DNA from: a virus
Virus record (IMG/VR): IMGVR_UViG_3300037011_001005
Location: 1 to 28,367 of that record
Direction: 5' to 3' (one strand)
Length of the DNA: 28,367 nucleotides
In this document: in pieces, positions 9,984 through 28,367 of the stretch
Numbering within the stretch: position 1 is the stretch's first letter
Layout: every line of letters begins with the position of its first letter
Position numbers and translations under genes: made by a program
Notes under the pieces: generated by a model
Told to the model about the DNA's origin: nothing
The model's database searches: none
What the model saw: the letters and a program-made list of their open reading frames with translations, nothing else

Positions 9984-10631
9984 ATGGCAAAGCCAACAAC
10001 TATACCTGTATTTTCAGAATTAGATCAAACTGACCCAACATCAATGCAGCTAAATACTAAAGAACCTATACCTTCATACATAGATTATGGGTGGCCATTT
10101 AAGTCTTTTCCAAATAGGCAAAACATGAATTATTTATTCAGGTGGATTTCAAGATGGCTCACATGGATAAATAATAATAATCTTAGTGGAACAATACCAA
10201 TGAAGTTATTTTTAATAGATAGAAATTTCACTTCAGCTTATGGTGGAATATTAGACACTGGGGCTATTAATTTTAATCTCCACTGGGAGCGATCTGGAAA
10301 TGTAGTAACCTGCCACTTTATAAGTAGTGTCAAAGTTGAAATACGTGGAACGTTAGATGCTGGTGTTCCAGAATTAAATTTGGAAATAACACCCCAAGCT
10401 GGTTACACTTACCCCGATGCTTTTATAAAAAGTTATTTTGACAATATATCCTTTTTAGTAAGAGCTGATGGTATTGTAGTGCCAGGTATATTACAAATAG
10501 CTCCTATGGCACATGGAAGTACTATAAAATGGTATATACAAGGTTTGCCAGTTATGATGTTTGGAAGTGATACGGTAAGTGACAATGGAATTGCTTGTTC
10601 TTCTTTTTCTTTTATAGTAAATGAGTTATAA
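9984..10631 (+). CDS. Small fibre-like structural protein, last gene of the tail operon
   Basis: A 215-residue protein. The N-terminal ~65 residues contain YIDYGWPFKSFPNRQNMNYL and RWISRWLTWINNN, matching the pattern at the N-terminus of several phage tail fibres and fibre-associated proteins, where a Pro/Asn-containing loop precedes a Trp-rich helix (compare 'P-x-R-Q-x-x-N-x-L'). The rest (residues 70-215) is beta-rich with no motif I can name and may be a head domain for receptor binding or trimerisation. A strong AAAGGAG site precedes the ATG. The gene is followed by the operon terminator at 10661-10697. Its role is inferred from the N-terminal pattern and position. Confidence 0.5.
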   Translation: MAKPTTIPVFSELDQTDPTSMQLNTKEPIPSYIDYGWPFKSFPNRQNMNYLFRWISRWLTWINNNNLSGTIPMKLFLIDRNFTSAYGGILDTGAINFNLHWERSGNVVTCHFISSVKVEIRGTLDAGVPELNLEITPQAGYTYPDAFIKSYFDNISFLVRADGIVVPGILQIAPMAHGSTIKWYIQGLPVMMFGSDTVSDNGIACSSFSFIVNEL

Positions 10632-10660
10632 AAATATTACCCGTAGTCACCTCCGTTTGA

Positions 10661-10697
10661 GGGAATGGCCATGTTGTTTTGTGGTCATTTCCTTTTT
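10661..10697 (+). terminator. Intrinsic terminator at the end of the tail operon
   Basis: An 11-bp stem (10661-10671 with 10682-10692, including two G-T wobbles) with a 10-base loop, followed directly by five T residues at 10693-10697. It lies 30 bases after the last tail gene. The T-run covers the stop codon (10696-10698) of the convergent helicase gene, so the two opposing operons share these bases. No comparable T-run follows the stem on the minus strand, so it should act mainly on rightward transcription. Confidence 0.75.
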
Positions 10698-12162
10698 AAA
10701 AAAAGGATGCCCAATTTGAAGTGGTTATCAGGTCACTTAAATTCTTCTTTACCTTTAGGGCTTGTAATATTTTTTCATCAATGGTCCCTTGTGCAATCAT
10801 ATCTATATATGTTACACTTTCAGTTTGTCCTATTCTATGAGCTCTATCCTCTGACTGATTTCTTTTTTCGGCGTCAAAACTATTAGAGTAGTATATAACT
10901 GTTGTTGCCGCTGTTAAATCAAGCCCATATCCGGCCGTTTGGGGATTACCTATAAGGAATCTAACTATAGAATCTTTACCTCTTTTAAAAGTCACCCTGG
11001 CGATATCCCGCATGGCTTGAGGCGTGTCCCCGTAATAGCTTAATACCTTATCATTTCCATATTCCTTCTTTAAATGAACCTCAATTTCTTCTATAGATGC
11101 CCTATAGTTCGCCCATATTATCACCTTACCTTCTATCTCCTCTAATAAAGAGGATAAAGAAGATAGTCTATTATGAGGTATAGAGTGAATATTTTTATTA
11201 TCATCTTTCAGATGCCCACAAACTAATTGGTGTAATCTTAGTAATTTAGTAAGAACTATTTTTGTAGTGACTAAAGATGTTTCCGATAATTGTGTAAATG
11301 ATTCTTTTTTTAGTCTATCATAGTGATATTGTTGTTCCACTGTTAATTCTACAAAACATTTTTGGTATATTTTAGGTGGCAGGTCAAGGCAGTCTTTTTT
11401 CTTTACTATGAAAGAATATTTTTCTATAGCCTTTTTAAGATTATCCAAATTTTTATAACCAACTATAGTATTAAATTGTCTTAATACTCCATTACTTTTT
11501 ACTTTCATTTCTTCTAAAATTGCATACTCTGCTTTAAAAGAATAAAATGAAGTATGCCCAAGACACCCATTTGATAGAAATTGAAATTGTGCCCAAATAT
11601 CCAATGGTCTGTTATCGACAGCACTGCCCGTTAAAATTCTCCTTGCTTTGGCAACCTTACCTATATCCCAGGCTGCTTTTGTCCTGGCCGCTTTGGGGTT
11701 CTTTATGGTTGTAGATTCATCAATCACGGCCAAGGTACTATGCCCTGAAGTAAACTTTAAAGCAAGGTTTTTACTTCTTTTAAATGCCAATGCTTCTATG
11801 TTCATTATAAGAATCTTTAGGGTAAATTTATTTGTGTTGAACAAATTTAATATTTTACTCATTTCTGTTGTACTTGCATTTGCACTCCATACTCCTATTT
11901 CATATCCTATATGATTTGGAATATGCTCCTTTATTTGGTCAATCCAGTTTGTATACATTCCTTTTAAACCAAAAATTATCACAGCATTAATCCAACCTTG
12001 ATCATACATAAAGGCGGCAGTGTCTATAAGTAGTTTACTTTTACCTGTCCCCATCTCCATTAAAAAAGCAAAATATTTATGATTATTGGTTCTATTCCAG
12101 GCGTCTAATTGATGTTTAAATGGTGTTGTTTTAAATTTGTATTCTATAGTTTTTTTATTCAT
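10696..12162 (-). CDS. SNF2-like superfamily 2 helicase/ATPase
   Basis: A 488-residue helicase-type ATPase of the SNF2 group. Visible motifs are FKHQLDAW (Q-type motif, residues 15-22), Walker A G-T-G-K-S (38-42), DEST in place of DEAH (148-151), RILTGS (motif III, 175-180), and the C-terminal QSEDRAHRIGQT motif VI (436-447), the classic SNF2 Q-x-x-x-R-x-x-R-I-G-Q form. These proteins translocate on double-stranded DNA; phage versions are linked to replication restart or remodelling of protein-DNA complexes. AAAGGAG precedes the ATG. It is the last gene of the leftward replication operon, 14 bases after the UvrD-like gene, and its stop codon lies in the shared terminator. Confidence 0.88.
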   Translation of the reverse strand: MNKKTIEYKFKTTPFKHQLDAWNRTNNHKYFAFLMEMGTGKSKLLIDTAAFMYDQGWINAVIIFGLKGMYTNWIDQIKEHIPNHIGYEIGVWSANASTTEMSKILNLFNTNKFTLKILIMNIEALAFKRSKNLALKFTSGHSTLAVIDESTTIKNPKAARTKAAWDIGKVAKARRILTGSAVDNRPLDIWAQFQFLSNGCLGHTSFYSFKAEYAILEEMKVKSNGVLRQFNTIVGYKNLDNLKKAIEKYSFIVKKKDCLDLPPKIYQKCFVELTVEQQYHYDRLKKESFTQLSETSLVTTKIVLTKLLRLHQLVCGHLKDDNKNIHSIPHNRLSSLSSLLEEIEGKVIIWANYRASIEEIEVHLKKEYGNDKVLSYYGDTPQAMRDIARVTFKRGKDSIVRFLIGNPQTAGYGLDLTAATTVIYYSNSFDAEKRNQSEDRAHRIGQTESVTYIDMIAQGTIDEKILQALKVKKNLSDLITTSNWASFF

Positions 12163-12176
12163 ATATCTTTACTCCT

Positions 12177-13682
12177 TTATATAGTAAAATAGTTTGGTGT
12201 CTGTGGCTGTATTATAAAAAGATTTTTTAAAGTCCTTGTTATTCCAACATAAAATACTCTTGCTTCATCATCATAATTATTCATCATTGCATCATAAGTT
12301 CTTTTTGATATATCTGTGTAAAGAATAACATTTTCACTTTCTCCACCTTTTGCCCCATGAATGGTTGATATTTTTATACGTGGATTTTTTAAAAGACTTT
12401 CTCCCATTCTCCTGGCTGCTATGTAATATTCTCTATCATCTATTGCCATTAAATCTAATGCTTCATGCCATATCTTATTTTGGCAGGTTATTTCAACTAA
12501 GTTATTTAAAGTTGTAAAAGTTAAAAAATCATTTTCATTGTCTTTAAGGGCTTTACTTATAGAACCTTTTAAATTATTTTTAGACATAAAAGAACACATT
12601 AATTTAATGTCACTTACTGAAGCTGTCTTTCCTGCTCTCAAATTTTCCCAAATGAACGCTGCTTTTAAACTATCATTTTTTGTTGGCTTGTCAAGAATAC
12701 TCTCATACAAATAACCTATTGATCGAAGATAGTCCATAATCTCTTCTATCATATAGATATTTCTTACTAAAATTAACCAAATACCTTTACTCATATTTAT
12801 TTCATTTATGTTTGTTATATAATTAACTTCCCCTTTTTCATCCCTGGCTTTAAATTCTTTTTTTATTCTTTTAGAGATTCTTTCTATTATTTCTATAGAG
12901 AGATTATACACATTTTTTGGTAGTCTATAACTTTTATGTAAAACAACAGCTTTACATTTTGAGGTTAAATTAATAAAAAATTCTATTTCAGCCCCAGACC
13001 ACCTAAATATTGCCTGATCATCATCCCCTGCTATAAATGTTTTCTCTGAATTATTTGCCAATTGTTCTACAATTTTCCACTGAAGTAAGCACAAATCTTG
13101 TGCCTCATCTACAAATAATACTTTTAATTTTGGCTTATATCCTTCATTATAATATTTTGTTAACATATCTGTAAAGTCATAAAGCAATTTTGTTTTTTTA
13201 TAGTTTACAAAAGTTCTTGTAAATAAATCAAATTCATCCCAAGAAAAATCTGGGTTTGTTTGATCATACATATCCTTATATGATTTACAGCACAACCTGG
13301 CCAAAGATTCTAAAAATACAAGTTGGTCACCTTTACTAAGTTCATATATTTGTTGCTCATCTCTTCTTACCCCTGTTATTTTTAGACCTGCTATAGAACC
13401 AAGTTCTGTATAATTTTTTCTATTCATTACATCACTTGTTGACATTCCCAATTGTCTAAAAGCCAAGGCATGAATTGTTCTAAAATAATAGAACCAGTCA
13501 GATTCTTTTTTAAATCTAAGTGATGCCCTTTCTTTTGCCTCATTTACACTCTTTTTTGTAAAGGATATAAACCCAATACTATTTGGTTCAGTTCCATTTT
13601 TTAAATATTTGTCAATTAAATTCAAAAGAGTATTTGTCTTTCCCGTTCCTGGTGGTCCGAATATTAGTGTTGCATCTTTCAT
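12177..13682 (-). CDS. UvrD/Rep-like superfamily 1 helicase
   Basis: A 501-residue SF1A helicase. Motifs are GPPGTGKT (Walker A, residues 9-16), FISFTKKSV (motif Ia region), FRTIHALAFRQLG (Ib region), VDEAQD (Walker B, 191-196), GDDDQAIFRWSGA (motif III, 219-231), KSYRLPKNV (motif IV), STIHGAKGGESENVIL (motif V) and RVFYVGITR (motif VI). At 501 residues it is clearly shorter than cellular UvrD (about 700), so the 2B and C-terminal parts are reduced, as in other phage versions. It unwinds DNA 3' to 5' in the family. The start overlaps the primase stop in ATGA form, suggesting translational coupling of primase and helicase. Confidence 0.88.
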   Translation of the reverse strand: MKDATLIFGPPGTGKTNTLLNLIDKYLKNGTEPNSIGFISFTKKSVNEAKERASLRFKKESDWFYYFRTIHALAFRQLGMSTSDVMNRKNYTELGSIAGLKITGVRRDEQQIYELSKGDQLVFLESLARLCCKSYKDMYDQTNPDFSWDEFDLFTRTFVNYKKTKLLYDFTDMLTKYYNEGYKPKLKVLFVDEAQDLCLLQWKIVEQLANNSEKTFIAGDDDQAIFRWSGAEIEFFINLTSKCKAVVLHKSYRLPKNVYNLSIEIIERISKRIKKEFKARDEKGEVNYITNINEINMSKGIWLILVRNIYMIEEIMDYLRSIGYLYESILDKPTKNDSLKAAFIWENLRAGKTASVSDIKLMCSFMSKNNLKGSISKALKDNENDFLTFTTLNNLVEITCQNKIWHEALDLMAIDDREYYIAARRMGESLLKNPRIKISTIHGAKGGESENVILYTDISKRTYDAMMNNYDDEARVFYVGITRTLKNLFIIQPQTPNYFTI

Positions 13683-17139: not shown

Positions 17140-17526
17140 TTATAAATAAGTAGTTAAGAAAGTGGTAAAATCAGCCCAGGAATATTTATTTTTATTTCTT
17201 GGGTCAGTGTAAATTAATTCATATTCCAATTCTTTACAAAATTTCACAATGTATATTTTTATTTCTTCTTTATGTTTTACAATTACAAAAATTAAACTTC
17301 CAGCATTCACCCTTCTCGTGTGCCAAGAAAGTTGTGAAGGTTCATGAAGTTCTTTTACATTGCACAATTTTTTTTGACATATTTTTAATTCAATCCAATA
17401 GTCATTACCTTCATAACAGGCATTTATATCCGGCATTCCACTTTCGGCAATATTTTCAATTCTATCATAAACACCAGGCAAATGGTCTTTAATTAAATTC
17501 CACAATTTTTGTTCTGGCTTTTTCAT
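17140..17526 (-). CDS. VRR-NUC type nuclease
   Basis: A 128-residue PD-(D/E)xK-fold nuclease of the VRR-NUC group. Visible catalytic set: GMPD (D33), W-I-E-L-K (E46, K48), then PSQLSWHTRRVNAG (Gln65, conserved Trp and Arg, with the Ala-Gly that gives the family its pattern). Stand-alone phage VRR-NUC proteins act as structure-specific nucleases in replication or recombination, for example on branched DNA. GAGGAG precedes the ATG. The start overlaps the end of the polymerase gene by four bases, indicating coupling. Family assignment is strong; substrate is inferred. Confidence 0.85.
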   Translation of the reverse strand: MKKPEQKLWNLIKDHLPGVYDRIENIAESGMPDINACYEGNDYWIELKICQKKLCNVKELHEPSQLSWHTRRVNAGSLIFVIVKHKEEIKIYIVKFCKELEYELIYTDPRNKNKYSWADFTTFLTTYL

Positions 17527-19481
17527 ATTTTTAACTCCTCTAATTCACCCCAATTTTTACCTATTTCTGGGATAACAACCAATGGTACTGTTAATTTTAT
17601 ACAATTTAACATAATATTTTTTATTTCCTTAATTTGTTTTTTTGAGGTTATGTTGCAAAAATCAAGTTCATCATGGACTGTTAAACAAGGTACATACCCT
17701 ATTTTATAACAATCAACCATTGCCTTTTTAATCATATCAGCAGAACCACCCTGAACAAGTCTATTTAATGCCTTATGAAGAAAATAACGCTGGACTGGTC
17801 GGCCAAATTCCTCTATAGCTTCTTCATAAGATTTTGGAACTATGCCCTTATTCCATTTAGCTGGGCCCCATAAATTAAATCTTTGCTTTCTCCCAAGTAA
17901 AGTCTTTATATAGCCTCTTTGATTTGCCACTCTTTTAATGTGGTCACCTAAAAGTTTTATAAAGGGAACTGATTTATGAAAAGCATCAAATATTTCTTCT
18001 GCTTCTTGGAATGACATCCCTAATGTTTCCGCCAATCTTGTTTTTCCCATACCATAAGCCAATCCCAAATTTAAATCTTTGGCCACTCTTCTCTTTATTT
18101 CAACCCCCGCCATTTCTAATACCATATCAGCCACTAACTGATGATAATCGGTATCAGGGTTCTTTATATACCTTTCTCTTGCTATATCAGCACCTGGCAG
18201 GTTTAAAAGGGCCGCGTAGTGAACTAGCACCCTTGGTTCTTGTTGTGAATAATCAAGTTTAACCCATTGTTTTCCTTCTTCTGCTATTAATAAAGAACGT
18301 ACCTGTTTTGCTATGACTTCATTTCTTGCTGGGAATTGTTGCGCATTTGGATTACTTGAGGAGAATCTACCAGATGCCGTTCCATATCTCTCTGTTTTAA
18401 CTTGCCAAAATTGAGGATGTATTCTATTTCCAACAGCTAAATCAAGTATCTTTTTTTCTATAAAAATACTTCCTGATCGTTCCAATTGGCGTGCTTCTAA
18501 AAGTAAAGTAAAAAATACATTACTTTGTTCTTTTAACCATTTTGCCTCAAATGATGGATTACCTTTTTCTGTGTATGGAAATTTTAAACCAAGTTTACCA
18601 CAGGCTTTTACTATATCTTCTTGTGACCAAATGTCAGGTTTAAACCCAACTCTTCTACTTATTTTTTTAATAACACCATCATATTCAGATTGAAGTTTGT
18701 CCCGAACTTCCTCCCCTTTTTTAATATCCACTGGGACACCTCTGACCCACATTTCTAATAATAAATCAATCAATGGTGTTTCTGTTTCTTCAAATAATTC
18801 CCACAAACCTTCTTCCTTTAATTTTTTGGATTGTTCTTTAAATATCCTTATTGGAAGTTCAACATCACTTTCTCCATATTCTCCAATGTAACGCGCTGGC
18901 AATCTCCAAATATTACCTTTTACTTGAGAGATAATATCTTCATCTATCTCCTCTTGTGATTTTCCCTTACCTTTAAAGCCAAGTAAAAGTTTTCCGGCAT
19001 CTAATAAAAGGTTCTCTTTTTTGCCTATTTTTAAATAACTTTTGGATAAGGAATCAAGTGTGTAATGTAGCCTATTGTCATCAAGTAAAGGTTCTGCAAC
19101 TTGTATATCATATTTTTTTCCACCAACATTTATTCCTAAATCACATTTTAACCAAATCAAATCATATAGGATATTAGCCCCTAATTTATCAACAGAACCT
19201 TCCAATTGGTCTTTTAACCATCTTATAGCATTTTTTGGATTATCTAAGTTATCACCACCTTCATGTTTTATAGGGTAATAACACTTAAAGCCATCGTCTG
19301 TCGCTACAGAGAACCCTACTATATAGCCATCACCTCTTAAGGCGCCGGGGCCATTCTCCTTTAGATTAGGGTCATAGGTTTCTACATCTATGGAAATTAT
19401 TTTCGCCCTTCCTTCTAATTTTGGAAAAATTTCCTTTGGGCGCCAGTCTGATTTTACTAAATTACTTAAACTATCATTCAT
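17523..19481 (-). CDS. polA: DNA polymerase, family A, with 3'-5' exonuclease
   Basis: About 652 residues from the ATG at 19481, which has GAGG at a good distance; the ATG five codons upstream has none. The N-terminal exonuclease is present: ISIDVETYD (Exo I, D32/E34), GANILYDLIW (Exo II) and YGESDVELP (Exo III). Polymerase motifs are DYSQQEPR (motif A, residues 410-417), RRVAKDLNLGLAYG (motif B) and TVHDELD (motif C, 603-605). The residue matching E. coli Pol I Phe762 is Leu (residue 472). No 5'-3' exonuclease domain is present. It is the main replicative polymerase candidate of the phage. Confidence 0.95.
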   Translation of the reverse strand: MNDSLSNLVKSDWRPKEIFPKLEGRAKIISIDVETYDPNLKENGPGALRGDGYIVGFSVATDDGFKCYYPIKHEGGDNLDNPKNAIRWLKDQLEGSVDKLGANILYDLIWLKCDLGINVGGKKYDIQVAEPLLDDNRLHYTLDSLSKSYLKIGKKENLLLDAGKLLLGFKGKGKSQEEIDEDIISQVKGNIWRLPARYIGEYGESDVELPIRIFKEQSKKLKEEGLWELFEETETPLIDLLLEMWVRGVPVDIKKGEEVRDKLQSEYDGVIKKISRRVGFKPDIWSQEDIVKACGKLGLKFPYTEKGNPSFEAKWLKEQSNVFFTLLLEARQLERSGSIFIEKKILDLAVGNRIHPQFWQVKTERYGTASGRFSSSNPNAQQFPARNEVIAKQVRSLLIAEEGKQWVKLDYSQQEPRVLVHYAALLNLPGADIARERYIKNPDTDYHQLVADMVLEMAGVEIKRRVAKDLNLGLAYGMGKTRLAETLGMSFQEAEEIFDAFHKSVPFIKLLGDHIKRVANQRGYIKTLLGRKQRFNLWGPAKWNKGIVPKSYEEAIEEFGRPVQRYFLHKALNRLVQGGSADMIKKAMVDCYKIGYVPCLTVHDELDFCNITSKKQIKEIKNIMLNCIKLTVPLVVIPEIGKNWGELEELKI

Positions 19482-19517
19482 AATATTTTTCCTCATTATT
19501 TTTGCGTACGTATACTG

Positions 19518-19991
19518 CTAAAATGGAACGGCATCTGTTATATTCAATAAAAAAGGAGATAATTCCACTTTATTAAATTTTAATTTTGTAAAAGCAAAAA
19601 CATCTTTTTCTATTAATTCATTTTTATAATCATAAAGATAAAATAAATCAACAGCTGATGTATTTAAAATCATTTTATAACAAGTTGGGCAGGGTATATT
19701 AGTACAGTACACTGTGGCTATTTTGAAATTATCTTTACATTGTATAATAGCATTTTGCTCTGCATGAACTGCTAAACATTCATCAAGTTTTTCACCACTT
19801 TTTTTTCTGGTGCATGTTAATGAATCACAACAATTTGTAATTTCACGAGGTGCCCCATTATAACCAGTACTTAAAACATGGCCATTGGCATCTATAAAAA
19901 TACAACCAACCTTTCTATGTAAACAAGTTGATCGTAAACTTGCCATTATAGCAAGTGACATAAAATATTCCTCTTTACTTATCCTTTTCAT
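19518..19991 (-). CDS. dCMP deaminase
   Basis: A 157-residue zinc-dependent deoxycytidylate deaminase that converts dCMP to dUMP. The catalytic set is VHAEQNA (His76, Glu78) and PCPTC (Cys101, Cys104). The region STGYNGAP and the Cys-rich insertion between residues 54 and 60 also fit the family, and the length is normal. GAGG precedes the ATG. Its start overlaps the end of the ThyA-like gene by 17 bases. dUMP made here can feed the ThyX enzyme encoded upstream in the same operon; it also competes for the dCMP that the ThyA-like enzyme may use. Confidence 0.92.
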   Translation of the reverse strand: MKRISKEEYFMSLAIMASLRSTCLHRKVGCIFIDANGHVLSTGYNGAPREITNCCDSLTCTRKKSGEKLDECLAVHAEQNAIIQCKDNFKIATVYCTNIPCPTCYKMILNTSAVDLFYLYDYKNELIEKDVFAFTKLKFNKVELSPFLLNITDAVPF

Positions 19992-20859
19992 TTTTTACCT
20001 CTTTATCATTCCAGATTGGTATAAGTTCTTTTAACCAAGATATTTCACTAAGACACATTTTGTTTTTTACTAAGCAATTAAGATGTTTTATTAGATCACT
20101 TGGTTTTTCAAATTGTGATAATACTATAGGTTCATATTTAAATAATTCTTGGCTTTCACTTGAATATTCATCCTCAGTTAATAAATTTTTTATTATTGGC
20201 AAAGTATAACCAAATGAATTTATATACAAGTGTTGACTTCCAGTCATTATTGTTAAATCACCTAAAAGTAATTCTATTTTAAGTATTGCCTTTAGATAAA
20301 TAGCTAAGTATGCCCCTAACATGGAGAATGTAAACCAATCATAAGGTATGCCAAGCCAAGCATCAGATGAGCGCATATAATTTATAATATCTAATTCCAA
20401 ATAATTATATTGATTTGGCCTGAGCAGAAATTGAACAGAAATAGTGCAGGGAATGTCAGATGATTCTGGTGGCTTTAATCTCCACAAAGACATCACGGCC
20501 CTTCTGGTAAATAAGTCTTTTTTAAAAGCCCTTCCTATGTATTCTATTTGGTCAACTATTGGTGGTCCATAGGCACCAAAGAAAGTTATACCATCATCTG
20601 AAAACTTCTCTATAATTTTTGAATAAGGCTTTAATGTCTCAACTTTATTGTCACCTTGTAACACCCAGGCCGCTTCTGCCAAAGCAAACTTATAACCCAA
20701 GTTCCTTCCTTTTAAAGTTATTAGAGGTTGGTTCATTGGTATTGTAGTTTTGTTTCCTATTAATTCCAATGATTTATGATTTCTACAAATCTGCTCTCTG
20801 CCATTAGAAATGATTGTGTTTAATAATTCAAGATAACAAATATTTGTTACATTTTCCAT
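19975..20859 (-). CDS. Thymidylate synthase-fold enzyme, probable dCMP hydroxymethylase (or methylase)
   Basis: A 294-residue member of the ThyA/hydroxymethylase superfamily, which adds a one-carbon unit to C5 of a pyrimidine nucleotide using methylene-tetrahydrofolate. The catalytic Cys is C138 in IPCTI. The phosphate/base region reads MRSSDAWLGIPYDWFTFS (162-179). At the position of the Asn that selects uracil in thymidylate synthase (E. coli N177) it has Asp174, as does T4 dCMP hydroxymethylase. The block GSQHLYINS (207-215) matches the D-x-H-x-Y segment of the family. Together with a separate ThyX gene this points to dCMP, not dUMP, as substrate. Whether the product is hydroxymethyl- or methyl-dCMP cannot be told. 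A strong AAGGAGG precedes the ATG. Confidence 0.7.
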   Translation of the reverse strand: MENVTNICYLELLNTIISNGREQICRNHKSLELIGNKTTIPMNQPLITLKGRNLGYKFALAEAAWVLQGDNKVETLKPYSKIIEKFSDDGITFFGAYGPPIVDQIEYIGRAFKKDLFTRRAVMSLWRLKPPESSDIPCTISVQFLLRPNQYNYLELDIINYMRSSDAWLGIPYDWFTFSMLGAYLAIYLKAILKIELLLGDLTIMTGSQHLYINSFGYTLPIIKNLLTEDEYSSESQELFKYEPIVLSQFEKPSDLIKHLNCLVKNKMCLSEISWLKELIPIWNDKEVKNEKDK

Positions 20860-21452
20860 ATTTCCTCCTTATTCTGTTTCATTGCCACTATTTCACAAAA
20901 ATTGTCAATATTTTTCCAATCACTATCAAAATAAATAAGGGAATTTTTATTTATGTGTACAAAGCCCTTTCTTATTATTTTTTCCAAACCCTTATTTCTT
21001 TCCGAACATTTTAAAACTTTGTTTCCACAAACAAAGTCTATATAGAGATCATTTACTTGGGTCATTTTATTTAAATACATCTCCTTTCTATCACTACACA
21101 GGGTTGTGAATCTTTCTTCATAATCAGTGTTTAAAGAGATACAAAAAATATAGAGGCAACCCATATTTTTTAGTATTTTGTCAAAAATAGTACCAATAAA
21201 TGGCCACTTACTTCCTTCTCTGTAAACCTCTGAATAGATCAATTCTGAAATCCACAACCTGTCAATAATAGTTGGTAAATTAGTTTTTTTTGTCAGTAAT
21301 AATGCCTTGTATATTTTTTTCGTAAAATAAGAAGGCATATTCCAATCCTTATTATAAGAACAGTGTACATAATTCCAACTAAACATTTCTTGAAGTCTTT
21401 TAGCAAGTGTAGTTTTTCCAGTACCATCAGCTCCTTCCAATATTATAAACAT
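20847..21452 (-). CDS. Thymidylate kinase-like dNMP kinase
   Basis: A 201-residue P-loop kinase. Walker A is GADGTGKT (residues 7-14) in the context FIILEGADGTGKTTLAK, which is the thymidylate kinase pattern, and the DR-type motif follows as TIIDRLWISELIYSEVYR (D64, R65). The C-terminal third is less typical and may determine the nucleotide bound. In T4 a dNMP kinase (gp1) phosphorylates hydroxymethyl-dCMP; this gene lies directly upstream of the ThyA-like gene and overlaps it by 13 bases, which fits a similar role. Specificity for dTMP or another dNMP is not visible. Confidence 0.75.
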   Translation of the reverse strand: MFIILEGADGTGKTTLAKRLQEMFSWNYVHCSYNKDWNMPSYFTKKIYKALLLTKKTNLPTIIDRLWISELIYSEVYREGSKWPFIGTIFDKILKNMGCLYIFCISLNTDYEERFTTLCSDRKEMYLNKMTQVNDLYIDFVCGNKVLKCSERNKGLEKIIRKGFVHINKNSLIYFDSDWKNIDNFCEIVAMKQNKEEIWKM

Positions 21453-21453
21453 A

Positions 21454-21747
21454 TCAATCCCTCTTTCCTATGAACTTTATATATTGACAATCAAAATTGC
21501 TACACCATTCATACTTGTCATCTTCAAGAAGTCTAAAAATTTCTTTTCCATGATTTGGGCAACACCTGGTTGTCCAGTCATGTAGCGATTGTAAACCAAC
21601 GGGCTTTATGATTATTTTATCAACATTTAATTTTATAGTGATATTTGCAACTATATTATATTGTGTTAATAAAATTGACAAGTCTTGAATAAAATCGGGA
21701 ATAAGTAAACTTCTCTCAAAATCTAAATTAACTTTTTCCTTTTTCAT
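21454..21747 (-). CDS. Small protein with possible zinc-binding Cys/His cluster
   Basis: A 97-residue protein I do not recognise. The N-terminal ~55 residues look mixed helix and strand (IPDFIQDLSILL, then ANITIKLNVDKIIIKP). The C-terminal part contains RCCPNHGKEIF and EWCSNFDCQYI, giving Cys-Cys-x3-His and Cys-x4-Cys, a plausible zinc site. A GGGG-type binding site precedes the ATG. It is packed between the GT-B-like gene (two bases) and the kinase gene (one base), so it is made together with the presumed modification enzymes, but no function can be assigned. Confidence 0.55.
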   Translation of the reverse strand: MKKEKVNLDFERSLLIPDFIQDLSILLTQYNIVANITIKLNVDKIIIKPVGLQSLHDWTTRCCPNHGKEIFRLLEDDKYEWCSNFDCQYIKFIGKRD

Positions 21748-21749
21748 AA

Positions 21750-22835
21750 CTATCCCCTTACTACTGTGTTAACAATTTTTAAAATTTGATTTTTTAAAAA
21801 ATCATTGGTTGTCAAATATGAAAGTGTTTCATGTGCTTGAGTATTTGCCAATGATTCTAATTCCAGTTCATTAAATTTTTCTATAAACCCTTTATTTAGG
21901 TTATGACCTGATAAAGGTACATCACCTGGTTCTGAGTAAATAATCGATTTACAATTTGCAGAATATAAATACCGGGTCCGGAACCAACCAGAGCTAAGAT
22001 AAGTATATGGTGGTGATAATATACCCCATCTTTTTGCATATTCATTTTGTAAATCAATCTCTGTTTTTAATTTAGAACCTCCATATATCTTTATTAAACC
22101 TGTAGACCCAAAAATATCAATTGTCCAACTATCAGAAACAGATGATAATTTACTTATCCATTTTTGATATTCCTTGTTTACGATTGTTCCAAGACCCCAT
22201 CTTTTTTCTTTTTTTAAAGGTTTGTATTTTATTAATTTTACTTGGGAGGAAGGATCAAATGGAATTAATGGACAACCTTTTGGTATCATTTTTTCAACCA
22301 CTTCTTCATCTCCCCATGTAAAGGCAGGATATGTATTTACTCTTTGATATCCCAAATCAGACCATTCCAAATCAGACCAATCCATATTGGCAAAATTACC
22401 AGCAGTTGAGACAATACTCAAAAGCACTTTTTTATCTACAAAATCAACAAATCTATATAAATAAGAACCTGATATTTTTTTAAAAATTTGCCTTTCTTTC
22501 CATGCCGCAAATGATCGTGCATGCTGGAGTGTTTGATTAATTTTCCAATCATCCCAGAATAATATTGTTGGAATTTTTTTAAACGACATTGCCCAAAAAG
22601 CGCCTAAAGTACAAGGAGCATTAAAGGAAAGACAACCCGCCAAATTTACCCAAATCAAATCATATCTTTTATCCAGACGTTCACCTGGCACTGTTTCTCT
22701 CCAATCAACAAGTATTGTTTTATCTAATTCCTCCAATTTTTTCTTTATTATTTCAGGCACACTCATTCTTGACATTGATCTACTTGATTTATTGCCACAT
22801 TGTAAACCAGAAAAACCAGTCATTAAAATTTTCAT
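21750..22835 (-). CDS. GT-B fold glycosyltransferase-like protein, possible DNA glycosyltransferase
   Basis: A 361-residue protein with a two-domain layout like T4 beta-glucosyltransferase. It starts with a Rossmann strand MKILMTGFSG. Residues 59-115 contain DLIWVNLAGC and TILFWDDWKINQ, resembling the position of the T4 enzyme's YYLFTDIRLP segment. The second half contains SWTIDIFGSTG (about 236-246) and GWFRTRYLYSANCKSIIY (283-300) followed by EPGD, resembling the donor-binding T4 region with R-x-W-E. These likenesses are by eye. In the family, UDP-sugar is transferred to an acceptor such as a hydroxymethylated base. It lies between the C5-MTase homologue and the dNMP kinase/ThyA-like genes. 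The acceptor could also be a protein or a surface sugar. Confidence 0.5.
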   Translation of the reverse strand: MKILMTGFSGLQCGNKSSRSMSRMSVPEIIKKKLEELDKTILVDWRETVPGERLDKRYDLIWVNLAGCLSFNAPCTLGAFWAMSFKKIPTILFWDDWKINQTLQHARSFAAWKERQIFKKISGSYLYRFVDFVDKKVLLSIVSTAGNFANMDWSDLEWSDLGYQRVNTYPAFTWGDEEVVEKMIPKGCPLIPFDPSSQVKLIKYKPLKKEKRWGLGTIVNKEYQKWISKLSSVSDSWTIDIFGSTGLIKIYGGSKLKTEIDLQNEYAKRWGILSPPYTYLSSGWFRTRYLYSANCKSIIYSEPGDVPLSGHNLNKGFIEKFNELELESLANTQAHETLSYLTTNDFLKNQILKIVNTVVRG

Positions 22836-22858
22836 AAAAAATCCTTTTGTTAATTAGG

Positions 22859-24037
22859 TTAAAAACACTCTTCATTTAATGTAGCAATATTTACTATATT
22901 ACTACTTCTTAGGGATAACTTAGGAACTTGGCTTGTCATTTGGGTTATGTCCCCATTTACTATATGATAACTTTTTTGATTTGCCCAGCCATTTAGCCCA
23001 TTTATTATCTCTACATATGGGGTACCTACTGATATTTTATCCTTTAAAGTCAGTTTGACTGTACCTCCAAGCCAAAAACCAACCTTACTACTTACTCCCC
23101 TGGCTATGTAGCTATTTGACCTGACTGCCCTGGGAAAGTTATAGTCAAGTGGAAAATCACCCAATAATTGATACTCTTTTAGAGTTAAAAATCGTTGATG
23201 ATAAGGATGGACCAAAGGATAACCAACAATAACTGATGAAAGTTTATCTGGGTGAAGTTTAACTATTCCAAATGTTGGTCTGCCTTTCACCTGTCCTTTA
23301 CTATTAATTATCCTATCTTCTATGGGAGTTAATCTATTAAAGGTTGCTGCCATTCTTTCTCCTGGCTTTATTTCTTTTAGTAAATTAACCAACTTTGAAT
23401 GAACGGGAAAAAGATAGTTTTTTTCAGGAGGGATTTCTTTCAATTCATTATCGAAAGAATTAAAAAGTGTACCAGTGGATACTATAGGGGCAGGTAAATA
23501 AGCCTTGAATTTAATCTTAAAGGGAGAAGCTATAAGCAAAATACGTGGCCTATTTTGGGCTGATCCGAAATAACAGGCATTGTTTAAAAAGATTGTTACT
23601 CCAAATCCAATGTTTATAAGTTTCTTTGACATTTCCATAAGAAAATCAGGGGCTTTAGAATAGGCTTGAATTGTTGTTTCTATAATAATAATTTTTGGCC
23701 TATTCAATATTCCCCAATTTATTATTCTATCCCAACAAGATAGTCTTTTATCGTTTTTCCAACCTCCATTAAAGGAATTGGTATTTGCATTTGAGAAAGG
23801 GGCACATGGCGGGTTGGTAAAAAATAAATCAATATCAGGACAATTTTTCCACTTAGTATTATATGGTATTATAGGCATATTATTCCAATATCTTTGCCTA
23901 TTCATATTTATTACTTCTTCGCCGTACGGTTTTTCATCTTCAAAATGGGCTATGACATCAATCCCACTCCTCTTTACTCCAAGTGAAAAACCACCAGCAT
24001 AAACATTTGCAGCTATAGCTTTAAGTTCTTTATTCAT
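22859..24037 (-). CDS. C5-cytosine DNA methyltransferase homologue
   Basis: About 392 residues from the ATG at 24037. A GTG at 24085 would add 16 residues and overlap the upstream gene; motif I starts right after the ATG, so the ATG is preferred. Motif I is ANVYAGGFSLGVKRSG. Motif IV is FFTNPPCAPFSNAN with catalytic Cys78, but with Pro-Cys-Ala in place of Pro-Cys-Gln. Motif VI has IIIETTIQAY with the conserved Glu (E120) but not ENV. Motif VIII is FGSAQNRPRILLIA. The C-terminal motif X region reads SNSYIARGVSSKVGF in place of the usual GNSV form. The family transfers a methyl group to C5 of cytosine. The changes suggest a divergent enzyme that may still be active; no matching restriction gene is present. 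Confidence 0.75.
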   Translation of the reverse strand: MNKELKAIAANVYAGGFSLGVKRSGIDVIAHFEDEKPYGEEVINMNRQRYWNNMPIIPYNTKWKNCPDIDLFFTNPPCAPFSNANTNSFNGGWKNDKRLSCWDRIINWGILNRPKIIIIETTIQAYSKAPDFLMEMSKKLINIGFGVTIFLNNACYFGSAQNRPRILLIASPFKIKFKAYLPAPIVSTGTLFNSFDNELKEIPPEKNYLFPVHSKLVNLLKEIKPGERMAATFNRLTPIEDRIINSKGQVKGRPTFGIVKLHPDKLSSVIVGYPLVHPYHQRFLTLKEYQLLGDFPLDYNFPRAVRSNSYIARGVSSKVGFWLGGTVKLTLKDKISVGTPYVEIINGLNGWANQKSYHIVNGDITQMTSQVPKLSLRSSNIVNIATLNEECF

Positions 24038-24071
24038 TATTTGTTCTACTTTCTTGTAAAATTTATTAGAT

Positions 24072-24620
24072 TTAGAGCTCTTCACATGCTTTACATTTTA
24101 AGGAAAGATAGGATTGTTTATCGCTACCACAGTCTTTGCATGGACCAAAAAAACCTTCAACTAAATCACTTAAGTTTGGTGGTGTCCACCCTTCTGGTTT
24201 TTTCAAATCCATTTCATGTCCTCTCTTAGTTCTCACCCCAACTTCTTTTTTTAAATTTGCCTCAAATACTCTTCTCCATGCTTCTTCAAAAAAAGTTATC
24301 TTTATCTGGGAGTAACAATTATCTTTCTTTTCATACTCCCTTAAAAAGCCCATTAGATATGCCGTACCTAACAATACCACAGTCATATCTATTAAACCAT
24401 CTAAAATTCCAATGGCACTAACTTCTTCCTCATTATTAGGTTCAAATTGGCATGATGTTTCATCAAACATAAACCCAGCACTATTTGCCGTTTCAATTAA
24501 CTCTTCTAAAAGAAAATTTAATCTCATGGCCATAAGCCCTTCATTAATCATTTGCGGCTTTGAAGGTTCTGGGAATTGAAATTTTTTATATAATATTACT
24601 TGGTCCCGAATCATACTCAT
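24072..24620 (-). CDS. MazG-like all-alpha NTP pyrophosphohydrolase with C-terminal zinc ribbon
   Basis: A 182-residue protein. The helical core has the metal-binding acidic set: LLEELIE (E39, E40, E43) and D74-x-x-x-D78 (in LDGLIDMT), followed by VVLLGTAYLMG, as in phage MazG/HisE-type enzymes that hydrolyse (d)NTPs to monophosphate and pyrophosphate. After AWRRVFEANLKKEVG, a typical phage segment, comes KKPEGWTPPNL, then a zinc ribbon with Cys161, Cys164, Cys176 and Cys179. It overlaps ThyX by four bases. It could supply dNMPs (for example dUMP or dCMP) to the downstream enzymes, or remove an unwanted dNTP. Substrate is not visible. Confidence 0.75.
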   Translation of the reverse strand: MSMIRDQVILYKKFQFPEPSKPQMINEGLMAMRLNFLLEELIETANSAGFMFDETSCQFEPNNEEEVSAIGILDGLIDMTVVLLGTAYLMGFLREYEKKDNCYSQIKITFFEEAWRRVFEANLKKEVGVRTKRGHEMDLKKPEGWTPPNLSDLVEGFFGPCKDCGSDKQSYLSLKCKACEEL

Positions 24621-25339
24621 ATTTCTACTCCTTTTATAAGGTTAAATTTTAAGGATATATCATCAAAAACCAATGGCACTTTTTCCTGGGCTATTGAAAA
24701 CATTAATCTTGCAACCTCTATCATTTGTGGATGGGCAGCAAAAGCAAGGCGAAGGTTAAAAAAGTGCCTCAATTCACGTAAGTTCATCGTTAAATTAATC
24801 TCAGTCTTTAGACTATTAGGGAGGACAGAACGTGCTTCCTGTGGTGCCAAGCCATTATTTAACATATCAATATAACAGGTCTCTATTTGTAGCATACTTG
24901 ATACCCATAATAAAGAGTTATACCATATAATATTTTGTTCACCATCGAAGTTGGGATTGGAATTACTATAAGAAGTAATTTCTTTTAAACTATGAAATTC
25001 ACCTAAAGGAAGTTCTTTGAAAAATAAAGGCTTTATAAAAGTAAGATTATTTCTATACCGGCAATATCTTGTACTTTCCTGGTGGAAAGTGGCTATTCTA
25101 TGCCTTACTAATTCATGAGATATTCCTCTATCACAGACAACCTTAAATGTCATTGTAACGTGTTCTAATAAGGTTTCATGATGTAAATCTATGGCATATT
25201 TCTGTACAAAATTCTTTGCCGAACCTGGTTCTATTTTATTTTCAGTTTTATGGCATACTCTCCCTATCTCCTCTATTGATTCTAAAGGATTATTTGAAGA
25301 TATGTTAATTAATTTGGCAGATGGTAATATTATAATCAC
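24617..25339 (-). CDS. thyX: Flavin-dependent thymidylate synthase ThyX
   Basis: A 240-residue ThyX, which makes dTMP from dUMP with FAD, methylene-tetrahydrofolate and NADPH. The signature is R79-H-R-I-A-T-F-H-Q-E-S-T-R-Y (79-92), the phage-type variant of the classic RHRxxSxNEQSxRY motif. RSVLPNSLKTE and FFNLR further on are also typical. The start is GTG at 25339 with GGAGG five bases upstream, inside the GTGA overlap with the preceding small gene. Its presence beside a ThyA-superfamily gene is informative: dTMP supply is already covered by this enzyme. Confidence 0.92.
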   Translation of the reverse strand: MIIILPSAKLINISSNNPLESIEEIGRVCHKTENKIEPGSAKNFVQKYAIDLHHETLLEHVTMTFKVVCDRGISHELVRHRIATFHQESTRYCRYRNNLTFIKPLFFKELPLGEFHSLKEITSYSNSNPNFDGEQNIIWYNSLLWVSSMLQIETCYIDMLNNGLAPQEARSVLPNSLKTEINLTMNLRELRHFFNLRLAFAAHPQMIEVARLMFSIAQEKVPLVFDDISLKFNLIKGVEI

Positions 25340-25527
25340 TTTTTCCTCCTATTTAATAAATTTAAATTAGTGGTGAATATTTTATTTTTACCCAATCCTT
25401 TTGTGATTTGATAAGTGTATAGACTTCCCTTCTTTTTTATTTTTATATCTACCAAAAACACTCTATTGGATATAAATCCTGATTTTACTGATTTTATCAC
25501 CTCTTTTGGCAATTTTTCAATTTTCAT
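25336..25527 (-). CDS. Small hypothetical basic protein
   Basis: A 63-residue Lys-rich protein without a recognisable family. It has an N-terminal MKIEKLPKEVIKS segment, then a possible beta pair (FISNRVFLVDIKIKKKG, then YTYQITKGLG) and a basic end. A strong AAGGAAGGA binding site precedes the ATG, and its stop overlaps the ThyX start by four bases. No motif identifies its job. Coupling suggests it is expressed with ThyX. Confidence 0.65.
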   Translation of the reverse strand: MKIEKLPKEVIKSVKSGFISNRVFLVDIKIKKKGSLYTYQITKGLGKNKIFTTNLNLLNRRKK

Positions 25528-25984: not shown

Positions 25985-26012
25985 AAAAAAGCCCACCATA
26001 TTAGTGGGCTTT
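25985..26012 (-). terminator. Intrinsic terminator after the repeat-rich basic/acidic gene
   Basis: A 9-bp perfect stem AAAGCCCAC/GTGGGCTTT (26004-26012 with 25988-25996) with a 7-base loop and a T-run of six on the minus strand (25990-25985). It lies 25 bases after the stop of the 263-residue gene and separates that gene from the downstream promoter. Confidence 0.85.
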
Positions 26013-26036: not shown

Positions 26037-26828
26037 TTACTTATTAACGATAATTGCATTCTCACTCTTCAGAAATCTGCTCCACCAGCTAAAGACGCCT
26101 TTATTACTCTGGCCAACTTTTAACCAATCATAATTGCCCATTGTCTTTGCAACATCAACTATCCTTTCGGCAGTGGCAGTGGGTGCAATTTTTGAGAGGG
26201 AGATAATGGCCATTTTCATATCTCTCAGCACAGCATGGTCATTCTCCTTGTCAATTTTCACCTTACCATTAAGAACATATTCCCTGTCTGCTCTCTCTGC
26301 TTTTTCTGCTTTGGCAACCTTGGCAACCGGGAGAGGAGTAGATTTTTTGGCAACCGGGAGAGGAGTAGATTTTTTGGCAACCGGGAGAGGAGCAGGCGCT
26401 TTTGTACCTTTTTTGGCAACCGGGAGAGGAGTAGATTTTTTATTTTTTGCTGCCACTGGGATCACATGTGTTGCAACCTCATCCTCTGAATCCTCCTCAT
26501 CGTCATTATCCTCCTCCTCTGCTTTTGAATCATCCTTTGCCATCGCATTTTTGGCAACCGGGGGAGGAGTAGGTATTTTTGATGGTGACACTTCTCCGTA
26601 TGCTTTTATTTCCATCGCATCCATCAATTTTTGACAGGCTTGTAATTTAGGAGTACCAGCCTCAAACTTTGCCCCTAAATAGAGCTCTGCCAGCTTATTT
26701 AACTGGGTAAGGGTGGCAATCTTTCCCAAAGTCTCTGCTGAATTTACAACTTTACCTCCTGGCTGTCCCTTTCCTGACCTGGTGATCGAAAAATTGGTGA
26801 AATTGATGGAAACGGCTTTATTAGACAT
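26037..26828 (-). CDS. Lys/Ala/Pro-repeat protein with acidic centre, possible DNA-binding protein
   Basis: A 263-residue protein. Residues ~30-80 are a helical domain, ~100-120 a strongly acidic run (EEEDNDDEEDSEDE), ~125-180 a low-complexity, H1-tail-like region of STPLPVAKK nonapeptides and AKAEKAERADR, and the last ~85 residues a compact helical domain with SWWSRFLK near the end. The basic Ala/Lys/Pro repeats suggest binding to nucleic acid or acidic partners. It has a near-consensus promoter, a strong AGGAG site and its own terminator, so it is probably a separately and strongly expressed gene. The ATG at 26828 fits the binding site better than the GTG at 26834. GC content is visibly higher than in neighbours. 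Function unknown. Confidence 0.6.
   Translation of the reverse strand: MSNKAVSINFTNFSITRSGKGQPGGKVVNSAETLGKIATLTQLNKLAELYLGAKFEAGTPKLQACQKLMDAMEIKAYGEVSPSKIPTPPPVAKNAMAKDDSKAEEEDNDDEEDSEDEVATHVIPVAAKNKKSTPLPVAKKGTKAPAPLPVAKKSTPLPVAKKSTPLPVAKVAKAEKAERADREYVLNGKVKIDKENDHAVLRDMKMAIISLSKIAPTATAERIVDVAKTMGNYDWLKVGQSNKGVFSWWSRFLKSENAIIVNK
26322..26431 (-). repeat. 27-bp coding minisatellite
   Basis: Four near-identical copies of a unit containing GGCAACCGGGAGAGGAG begin at 26322, 26349, 26376 and 26415, the first three exactly 27 bases apart and the fourth 39. A fifth, slightly changed copy lies at 26553. They encode the STPLPVAKK nonapeptide in the H1-like gene. The pattern is a slippage- or recombination-prone array that can change protein length in nine-residue steps. 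Confidence 0.85.
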
Positions 26829-26882
26829 AAACACTCCTTTGAAAAGTTTAAAAAATTTGACCTACCTGGTCTTGACTATTTA

Positions 26883-27411: not shown

Positions 27412-28367
27412 TTATACTAAATTTTTATTTCCATCCCTCCATTTTATATAATCTAAATCACCCAGCCATAATTTTATATAACCTAAATCATCCAGCCATA
27501 ATTTTAAAAGGCTGATCTCCTTTTTTTCTGTTATCTTTTTTCTTTCCAACTCTTCATAAACTTCAATTAAATTATCTTCTATTCTCTCCTTTTTTAAAGA
27601 CTCTTTTATTATTTGCACAATGTCTTCATTAATATTGTACATTCTTTCCTCTTGCCTATAATCGTCTAATAGATCATGCCTGTTTCTATCCTGAAAACCA
27701 ACAGAGTTTACGCAAGCTATATCATAGCCGTTTTTAAAAGCTATTACAAGAGCTATATAGCCTCTTAAAATGTCACTAAATCTAAAAGAAACAGTAGAAG
27801 GCAGGTATAATAGAGGGAATAGTTTTTCTTCACTCCAGAGTGTTAGTTGTGAGTTAATAGGTATGTAATTATCTTTTGATATTACTATTTTTCTAAATTG
27901 TTTTGGCTCTATGGAATATTCTGGATTTTGTAGTCTAAATGATGCACTTAAATCCGGCTCACCATCTAAAATACCCTGCCAAATGCCTATGTTTGTTTTA
28001 AAATTGGTTTTTAAAAAGCCCATTGGAATATTGTTTATATCCCTTAAAGGCAACCCACGTGGGAGAGGTATAAAATTTTCTCCTTTTTTATTAAATATAG
28101 AATAATATGCTGGGAAAAGATTTAAAAAACCTTCATTACTACAAATTGGATGCTCTAAATCTTGACAATTTGCATACCTCTCTATAAGTAACTTAGTACT
28201 GCCTTTTTCTATGTAGGGATAATTGTCATCATCTATATCTAAAATAGATGTTGGTTTTCTTCTTATAGCTTCTAAATAGCCAACATTTTTTCTGGAATAA
28301 TGATTTATAGGCAGGGCTTTTGCTAATAAAAAATCTCCCTTTAGTTGCTCTTCTATATCTATATATA
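27412..28367 (-). CDS. STELLO/DUF288-like glycosyltransferase (5' partial)
   Basis: The frame is open to the right edge of the window, about 318 residues visible, start outside; the TTG at 28053 is inside the gene. The visible part contains the STELLO/DUF288 pattern: LPINHYSRKNVGYLEAI, then a D-D-D-N acidic motif (codons at 28222-28233), IPLPRGLPLRDIN, NIGIWQGILDGEPDLSASFR, and NSQLTLW ... LYLPSTVSFRFSDILRGYIA. Eukaryotic STELLO proteins are Golgi glycosyltransferase-related; homologues occur in viruses, and the D-x-D-type motif fits a GT-A fold using a nucleotide sugar. The C-terminal ~30 residues include a 10-residue duplication. It may modify DNA, a protein or a surface sugar; which one is not visible. 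Confidence 0.7.
   Translation of the reverse strand, partial: YIDIEEQLKGDFLLAKALPINHYSRKNVGYLEAIRRKPTSILDIDDDNYPYIEKGSTKLLIERYANCQDLEHPICSNEGFLNLFPAYYSIFNKKGENFIPLPRGLPLRDINNIPMGFLKTNFKTNIGIWQGILDGEPDLSASFRLQNPEYSIEPKQFRKIVISKDNYIPINSQLTLWSEEKLFPLLYLPSTVSFRFSDILRGYIALVIAFKNGYDIACVNSVGFQDRNRHDLLDDYRQEERMYNINEDIVQIIKESLKKERIEDNLIEVYEELERKKITEKKEISLLKLWLDDLGYIKLWLGDLDYIKWRDGNKNLV
27441..27500 (-). repeat. 30-bp tandem duplication inside the STELLO-like gene
   Basis: Two adjoining 30-base copies (27441-27470 and 27471-27500) differ at two positions, and a third partial copy begins at 27501. They encode the duplicated decapeptide K-L-W-L-(D/G)-D-L-(G/D)-Y-I near the C-terminus. Confidence 0.85.

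Follow-up and report, generated by a model that had tools for sequence, protein, structure and literature searches.

A cluster of eight genes on the minus strand, at positions 25339 to 19518 of the IMG/VR virus record IMGVR_UViG_3300037011_001005, probably directs the synthesis of a cytosine-hypermodified genome. In this genome, 5-hydroxymethylcytosine (hmC) would replace cytosine and be glycosylated, and an enzyme resembling C5-cytosine methyltransferases (C5-MTases) would act on hmC. The whole record of 28,367 bases was analyzed (hereafter, the window); its GC content is 32%, and it is probably a fragment. The cluster encodes, in order, the flavin-dependent thymidylate synthase ThyX, a MazG-like pyrophosphohydrolase, the C5-MTase homologue, a GT-B-like glycosyltransferase (GT), a Cys-rich protein, a deoxynucleoside monophosphate (dNMP) kinase, a ThyA-like enzyme, and dCMP deaminase, and it is followed by the gene for a DNA polymerase I-like polymerase (PolA). 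A first-pass annotation had proposed this leftward segment, and all eight genes were confirmed at the coordinates and in the order it gave. A search of relatives for the same gene set recovered the complete order, identical, in a sister contig (L002) whose GT is 83% identical, and many contigs have looser versions of it, which argues that the arrangement is not due to chance. Homologies, active-site residues, and gene linkage were read directly from the sequence, and the activities assigned from them below are predicted.

The C5-MTase-like family and its association with ThyA

The C5-MTase homologue (22859 to 24085, minus strand; PF00145, E value of 1e-16) keeps the nucleophile C94 in a PC motif, the motif VI glutamate E136, and the RxR arginines R179 and R181. 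These four residues are invariant in all 43 nonredundant members of the family to which it belongs, a set thinned, like the 23 canonical C5-MTases used as controls, for motif counts and tree building. The glycine of the S-adenosylmethionine (AdoMet) motif (motif I, FxGxG) is lost in 43 of 43 members, its phenylalanine in at least 42, and the asparagine of the motif VI ENV in 42, compared with controls that all have the phenylalanine and asparagine and in 22 cases the motif I glycine; some members were retrieved by patterns containing motif I, IV, or VI, so the counts for those motifs are partly circular, which does not apply to members identified through the GT or with full-length tblastn. ThyA was used in finding no family member except L074. 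In alignments with canonical enzymes, the family shows E-[SCT]-V-Q-Q-A-[YF], or a close variant of it, where those have ENV. The C5-MTase-like proteins of actinophages are only ∼21% identical to that of the window, yet they share its departures from the canonical motifs. A tree of the 43 family members and 23 canonical enzymes splits the two groups cleanly (0.999) and places the window protein with those of L074, L157, and L159 (0.997 and 0.993).

At the nucleophile motif, some members (L161, L167, and L174 to L181) read PRC and not PPC. The annotated methyltransferase start of gene 122 in the Gordonia phage Forza (L076, 15491 to 15530) seems to be 13 codons late, with motif I lying upstream of it. 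A basic residue at motif X (GK or AR for GN) was considered as a family marker and dropped, since many control C5-MTases have GR.

A ThyA-like gene is present in 39 of the 40 records with a member of the divergent family, in none of 30 records with canonical C5-MTases, which are shorter on average, and in 2 of 39 viral records taken at random, with the positive control left out. The single miss, L164, has a near-identical sibling on a longer contig (L165) that does carry the gene. The Fisher value for the association is 5.6e-19, which is no true probability because the records are related. The 16 additional ThyA genes examined in family-carrying records are all of the dCMP type. So are the intact ThyA genes beside the MTase-like gene, apart from the MilA reference, a broken frame in L068, and an unaligned Glu in the Micrococcus phage Kurnik. 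The dependence is one-sided: a dCMP-type ThyA occurs without this family in five phages (MW202510, MW202621, HTVC119P, HTVC200P, and AXL3), and the reverse is hardly seen. Such a pattern is expected of an MTase-like enzyme that does not make hmC but works on it at a later step.

The tailoring partner varies among relatives, and the C5-MTase-like enzyme is constant. Both L157 and L158 have the gene set of the window, including a ThyX-like gene, without the window-type GT. In L159, a gene resembling the T4 alpha-glucosyltransferase (AGT), with a match below the family cutoff, adjoins the MTase-like gene. The C5-MTase-like domain of L074 (7022 to 9031) is fused in one reading frame to a class I methyltransferase (Methyltransf_23), relatives of which adjoin the dCMP-type ThyA in AXL3, MW202510, and MW202621. 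Judged by sequence, the window protein is a member of a divergent viral family tied to predicted dCMP hydroxymethylases and not an ordinary methyltransferase present by chance. A family that has lost AdoMet motif residues and kept its nucleophile would fit an enzyme directed at hmC.

The main rival explanation is ordinary methylation of residual cytosine. Here hmC would be made and glycosylated plainly as in T4, and the C5-MTase homologue would be a 5-methylcytosine (5mC) methyltransferase working on cytosine early in infection or in host DNA, outside the hmC chemistry. The PF00145 homology covers most of the protein, the Cys-Glu-Arg-Arg set is intact, and the window copy keeps the motif II glutamate and motif VIII glutamine, all of which are consistent with this explanation. 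The losses in motif I and ENV, together with the difference in ThyA content between records with the divergent family and those with ordinary C5-MTases, argue against it, and we consider it unlikely, if still a serious contender.

It is improbable that the C5-MTase-like protein is a noncatalytic hmC reader that flips bases to recruit the GT or other tailoring enzymes. Its direct proximity to the GT in the window, the fusion in L074, and the altered AdoMet motif would suit such a role, but a mere reader would not need the cysteine, glutamate, and arginines that are invariant throughout the family. Even more improbable is joint inheritance of a cassette among related phages without any shared pathway. 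Many of the contigs are close relatives, and the MTase-like and ThyA genes lie within 300 nucleotides (nt) of each other in 17 loci, preceded by a PF01503 protein in those examined. Both genes are nevertheless kept in several arrangements and where they are unlinked, as in Forza (∼77 kb versus 102 kb) and Kurnik (∼37 kb versus 51 kb), and the one-sidedness of the dependence also speaks against simple coinheritance.

Predicted nucleotide supply and glycosylation

The ThyA-like enzyme (19975 to 20859, minus strand; PF00303, 3.6e-19) reads as a dCMP-type enzyme because E62, R119, C138, S164, D174, H210, and Y212 are present, which is the complete marker set of dCMP hydroxymethylases. ThyA homology is kept together with the catalytic C138 and E62. 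D174 sits in place of Asn177 at the cytosine-selecting position, and R119 and S164 form the deoxyribose-favoring pair, where the CMP hydroxymethylase MilA, the best solved relative (2.5e-13), has Lys and Ala. Structures indicate that Asp for Asn selects cytosine over uracil and that the Arg and Ser positions favor dCMP over CMP (PMC5175136, PMC6400193). The same residues occur in the ThyA-like proteins of actinophages, Gordonia phages, and the Actinomycetia phage DSL-LC01 and in the short Kurnik gene, in which the Glu position is unaligned. ThyX (24617 to 25339, minus strand; PF02511, 2.1e-42) would supply dTMP, leaving the ThyA-like enzyme free for another job. The annotated thymidylate synthases of the Pelagibacter phages HTVC119P (L085, 4941 to 5789) and HTVC200P (L086, 4965 to 5783) also have the full dCMP-type residue set, and these phages may make hmC as well.

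Contigs with an Asp-type ThyA have been selected experimentally as cytosine modified, with PF01503, PF00383, and PF14437 proteins as neighbors (PMC8670742), and these families recur in the window and its relatives. The MazG-like all-alpha nucleoside triphosphate (NTP) pyrophosphohydrolase (24072 to 24620, minus strand; phrog_671, 1.2e-13) is a candidate dCTPase for removal of normal dCTP; PF01503 proteins hold its place beside the MTase-like gene in L168, L174, and L180, and one is found close to that gene in L157. The P-loop dNMP kinase (20847 to 21452, minus strand; phrog_761 thymidylate kinase, 6.5e-13), whose relatives adjoin ThyA in many loci, is a candidate kinase for hydroxymethyl-dCMP (hmdCMP). 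The dCMP deaminase (19518 to 19991, minus strand; PF00383, 9.9e-20; phrog_174, 3.2e-34) is predicted to convert dCMP to dUMP for ThyX.

The GT (21750 to 22835, minus strand) had no family match in a Pfam search, and its sole family match was to phrog_14998, of unknown function (6e-5). Its structure, predicted from an alignment of 24 sequences from the window and IMG/VR (predicted local distance difference test [pLDDT] score of 76; predicted template modeling score [pTM] of 0.77), supports a GT-B fold with two Rossmann-like domains. The top matches in a PDB fold search with this model were nearly all GT-B enzymes, with the T4 beta-glucosyltransferase (BGT) at ranks 3 and 10, and the closest neighbors in a viral structure library were uncharacterized viral proteins, one of them from the Gordonia phage Phendrix. 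A sequence scan found 68 loci related to the GT. Among those with enough flanking sequence, 23 of 23 have a ThyA-like gene upstream of the GT, within 10 kb, and 36 of 38 have a C5-MTase-like gene downstream. The only annotated phages with a sequence match were DSL-LC01, six Gordonia phages, and phage C48C1, where members are labeled “hypothetical protein” or simply “glycosyltransferase.” We regard the GT as a candidate for acting on hmC in DNA.

Two variations on the GT were seen in relatives. In DSL-LC01, a UDP-galactopyranose mutase gene lies directly behind it (L071, 11031 to 12128), which hints that the donor there may be a furanose sugar. In L066, the GT is in tandem with a second protein that has a similar N terminus, MSRVLITGMSAPQ (10001 to 11212 and 11209 to 12234); this arrangement is common in the actinophage group, and the second protein could possibly add a second sugar.

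The T4 logic calls for a hydroxymethylase, a kinase for the modified monophosphate, removal of the normal triphosphate, and a DNA glycosyltransferase. The first-pass annotation had named a candidate for each of these roles, and each is supported by homology. The two weakest have become stronger: the dCMP-type Asp it had noted in the ThyA-superfamily enzyme is D174 and is accompanied by all of the other dCMP-hydroxymethylase residues, and the GT-B-like assignment is now backed by a predicted structure and a fold search that returns T4 BGT as one of the nearest matches of known structure. Its remark that the C5-MTase homologue may mark a different route was well placed but too modest, given a divergent family with lost motifs and a link to dCMP-type ThyA.

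The proposed pathway

In the pathway that we propose, the MazG-like enzyme and dCMP deaminase would drain normal dCTP and dCMP and ThyX would make dTMP (step 1), the ThyA-like enzyme would hydroxymethylate dCMP (step 2), and the kinase would raise hmdCMP toward hmdCTP for incorporation by PolA, which would have to accept it (step 3). Steps 1 to 3 are likely, given the ThyA residues, the ThyX gene beside them, the MetaGPA contigs (PMC8670742), and the Stenotrophomonas phage AXL3 (PMC7504290). The GT-B enzyme would then transfer a sugar from a nucleotide-sugar to hmC in DNA (step 4). Finally, the C5-MTase-like enzyme would flip out hmC, or leftover cytosine, in DNA, and C94 would attack C6, with the base either changed further or made ready for a tailoring enzyme (step 5). 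The sugar and the whole of step 5 are put forward as predictions.

A more specific chemistry for step 5 is possible, and we offer it tentatively. A viral branch of the C5-MTase fold may have given up cytosine methylation for the processing of hmC in DNA, such that the cysteine attacks C6, the hydroxymethyl group becomes an exocyclic methylene, and either a nucleophile or a group from another cofactor is added or formaldehyde is released, with the GT, AGT-like enzymes, or class I methyltransferases as partners. Engineered M.SssI couples thiols to 5hmC in vitro (PMC7176277). M.MpeI, also in vitro, becomes covalently linked to 5hmC and appears to dehydroxymethylate it (PMC11347137). The title of PDB entry 8yf3 describes a C5-carboxymethyltransferase with carboxy-SAM, which indicates that the C5-MTase fold can take another cofactor.

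Several points weigh against the pathway as a whole. The structural model of the C5-MTase-like protein, whose fold matches are C5-MTases, is poor (pLDDT of 53) and too weak for reading the cofactor pocket. If all cytosine is replaced, an ordinary C5-MTase would be left without a substrate, and the case for step 5 consists of the association and the residue changes. The association counts are drawn from related viruses and are not independent. A PDB sequence search with the GT gave no match and so none to the T4 BGT or AGT families, and the TM-scores of its model, 0.4 to 0.5 with high root mean square deviation, support the fold and not the acceptor. GT-B enzymes use many acceptors. Finally, changing Asn to Asp is enough by itself to convert thymidylate synthase to dCMP methylation, as cited in PMC8670742.

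The last point favors the least probable of the alternatives, in which the ThyA-like enzyme is a dCMP methylase that, like that of phage XP12, makes 5-methyl-dCMP, and the GT, whose family has no proven acceptor, modifies a host surface glycan, a protein, or another acceptor. A hydroxymethylase differs from such a methylase in completing its reaction with water instead of hydride. Against it, the closest solved relative, MilA, is a hydroxymethylase, diverged phages retain the GT along with dCMP-type ThyA, even where the two lie ∼20 kb apart, as in Gordonia phages, and the T4 AGT-like gene of L159 adjoins an MTase-like gene. Two further routes were rejected for the window, itself a fragment: conversion of 5mC, made by the C5-MTase, to hmC by a Tet/JBP enzyme, since no Tet/JBP domain was found there (15 relatives gave only two weak subthreshold matches, both in one relative), and 5-carbamoyloxymethylcytosine synthesis, since no carbamoyltransferase (PF02543) was found.

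Gene layout and related systems

Tape-measure and baseplate genes of the window point rightward, and replication genes point leftward. From a 63-amino-acid open reading frame with no function assigned (25336 to 25527, minus strand; overlapping thyX by 4 nt) to the dCMP deaminase gene, the intergenic spacings are −4, −4, −14, 23, 2, 1, −13, and −17 nt. Most of the genes overlap and the widest gap is 23 nt, as in one operon; the PolA gene (17523 to 19496, minus strand; phrog_17, 3.2e-103) starts 21 nt behind the deaminase gene. The 97-amino-acid Cys-rich, zinc-ribbon-like protein (21454 to 21747, minus strand), for which a family search found no match, is kept in L002, as is the 63-amino-acid protein. 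A terminator-like hairpin with a T run, read directly in the sequence near 26010 to 25980, separates the cluster from the preceding gene, and a 265-amino-acid protein with repeated TPLPVAKK-like units and no clear family (26037 to 26834, minus strand) is also kept in L002.

A STELLO-type glycosyltransferase domain (PF03385, 1.2e-9) is encoded at 27412 to 28365 on the minus strand, in a gene that runs off the end of the window. Its relatives are in a 735-kb metagenomic phage (32%) and in Synechococcus phages. It was considered as a second DNA glycosyltransferase and set aside, since these relatives belong to a huge phage and to cyanophages, in the latter beside phosphoheptose isomerase; none was found in the other GT loci or in L002, which ends near that point. 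No relatives of the GT and MTase-like alignments turned up in 84,980 bacterial and archaeal genomes scanned, and no host was therefore inferred.

The hmC and glucosyl-hmC pathway of T4 (gp42 dCMP hydroxymethylase, gp1 kinase, gp56 dCTPase, and alpha- and beta-glucosyltransferases) shares its roles with the window, which has a dCMP-type ThyA, dNMP kinase, NTP pyrophosphohydrolase, GT-B glycosyltransferase, and dCMP deaminase. The window differs in its added ThyX and C5-MTase-like enzyme, another GT family, a PolA-type polymerase, and a compact operon. The MetaGPA contigs (PMC8670742) have the same Asp-type ThyA and neighbor families as the window and its relatives, but in place of the carbamoyltransferase of their 5-carbamoyloxymethylcytosine pathway, the window has a GT and a C5-MTase-like enzyme. 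AXL3 shares the dCMP-type ThyA (∼37 to 40% identical), kinase, NTP pyrophosphohydrolase, and deaminase, which lie in one run, as well as ThyX. Its DNA is uncut by 35 of 37 restriction enzymes, the two cutters having A/T-only sites, and the base was not identified (PMC7504290); it differs in having a class I methyltransferase, and no C5-MTase-like family member was found in its record. The divergent C5-MTase-like protein, dCMP-type ThyA, and GT genes are all present in the Gordonia phages Forza, GMA2, Sixama, and GodonK, in DSL-LC01, and in Kurnik, where, unlike in the window, the genes lie in separate regions, there are further GTs, and the motif II glutamate and motif VIII glutamine are lost. 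With M.HhaI, M.HaeIII, and 8yf3, the window protein shares the fold, PC nucleophile, Glu, and RxR; its family differs from canonical C5-MTases in the lost motif I FxG and ENV asparagine and in its tie to hmC genes.

Phages use cytosine hypermodification as a main shield from restriction and CRISPR, and the enzymes involved now serve as tools for sequencing or labeling 5hmC. In freshwater actinophage-like contigs, the GT family would be a hallmark of hmC glycosylation. The C5-MTase-like family almost never occurs without a predicted dCMP hydroxymethylase, which points to an hmC-processing reaction, no description of which was found in the open-access literature searched. Sequenced isolates carry the family (Gordonia phages Forza, GMA2, and GodonK and Micrococcus phage Kurnik), so this idea can be tested in them. 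If it is true, hmC processing by a C5-MTase fold would be a natural step of DNA modification.

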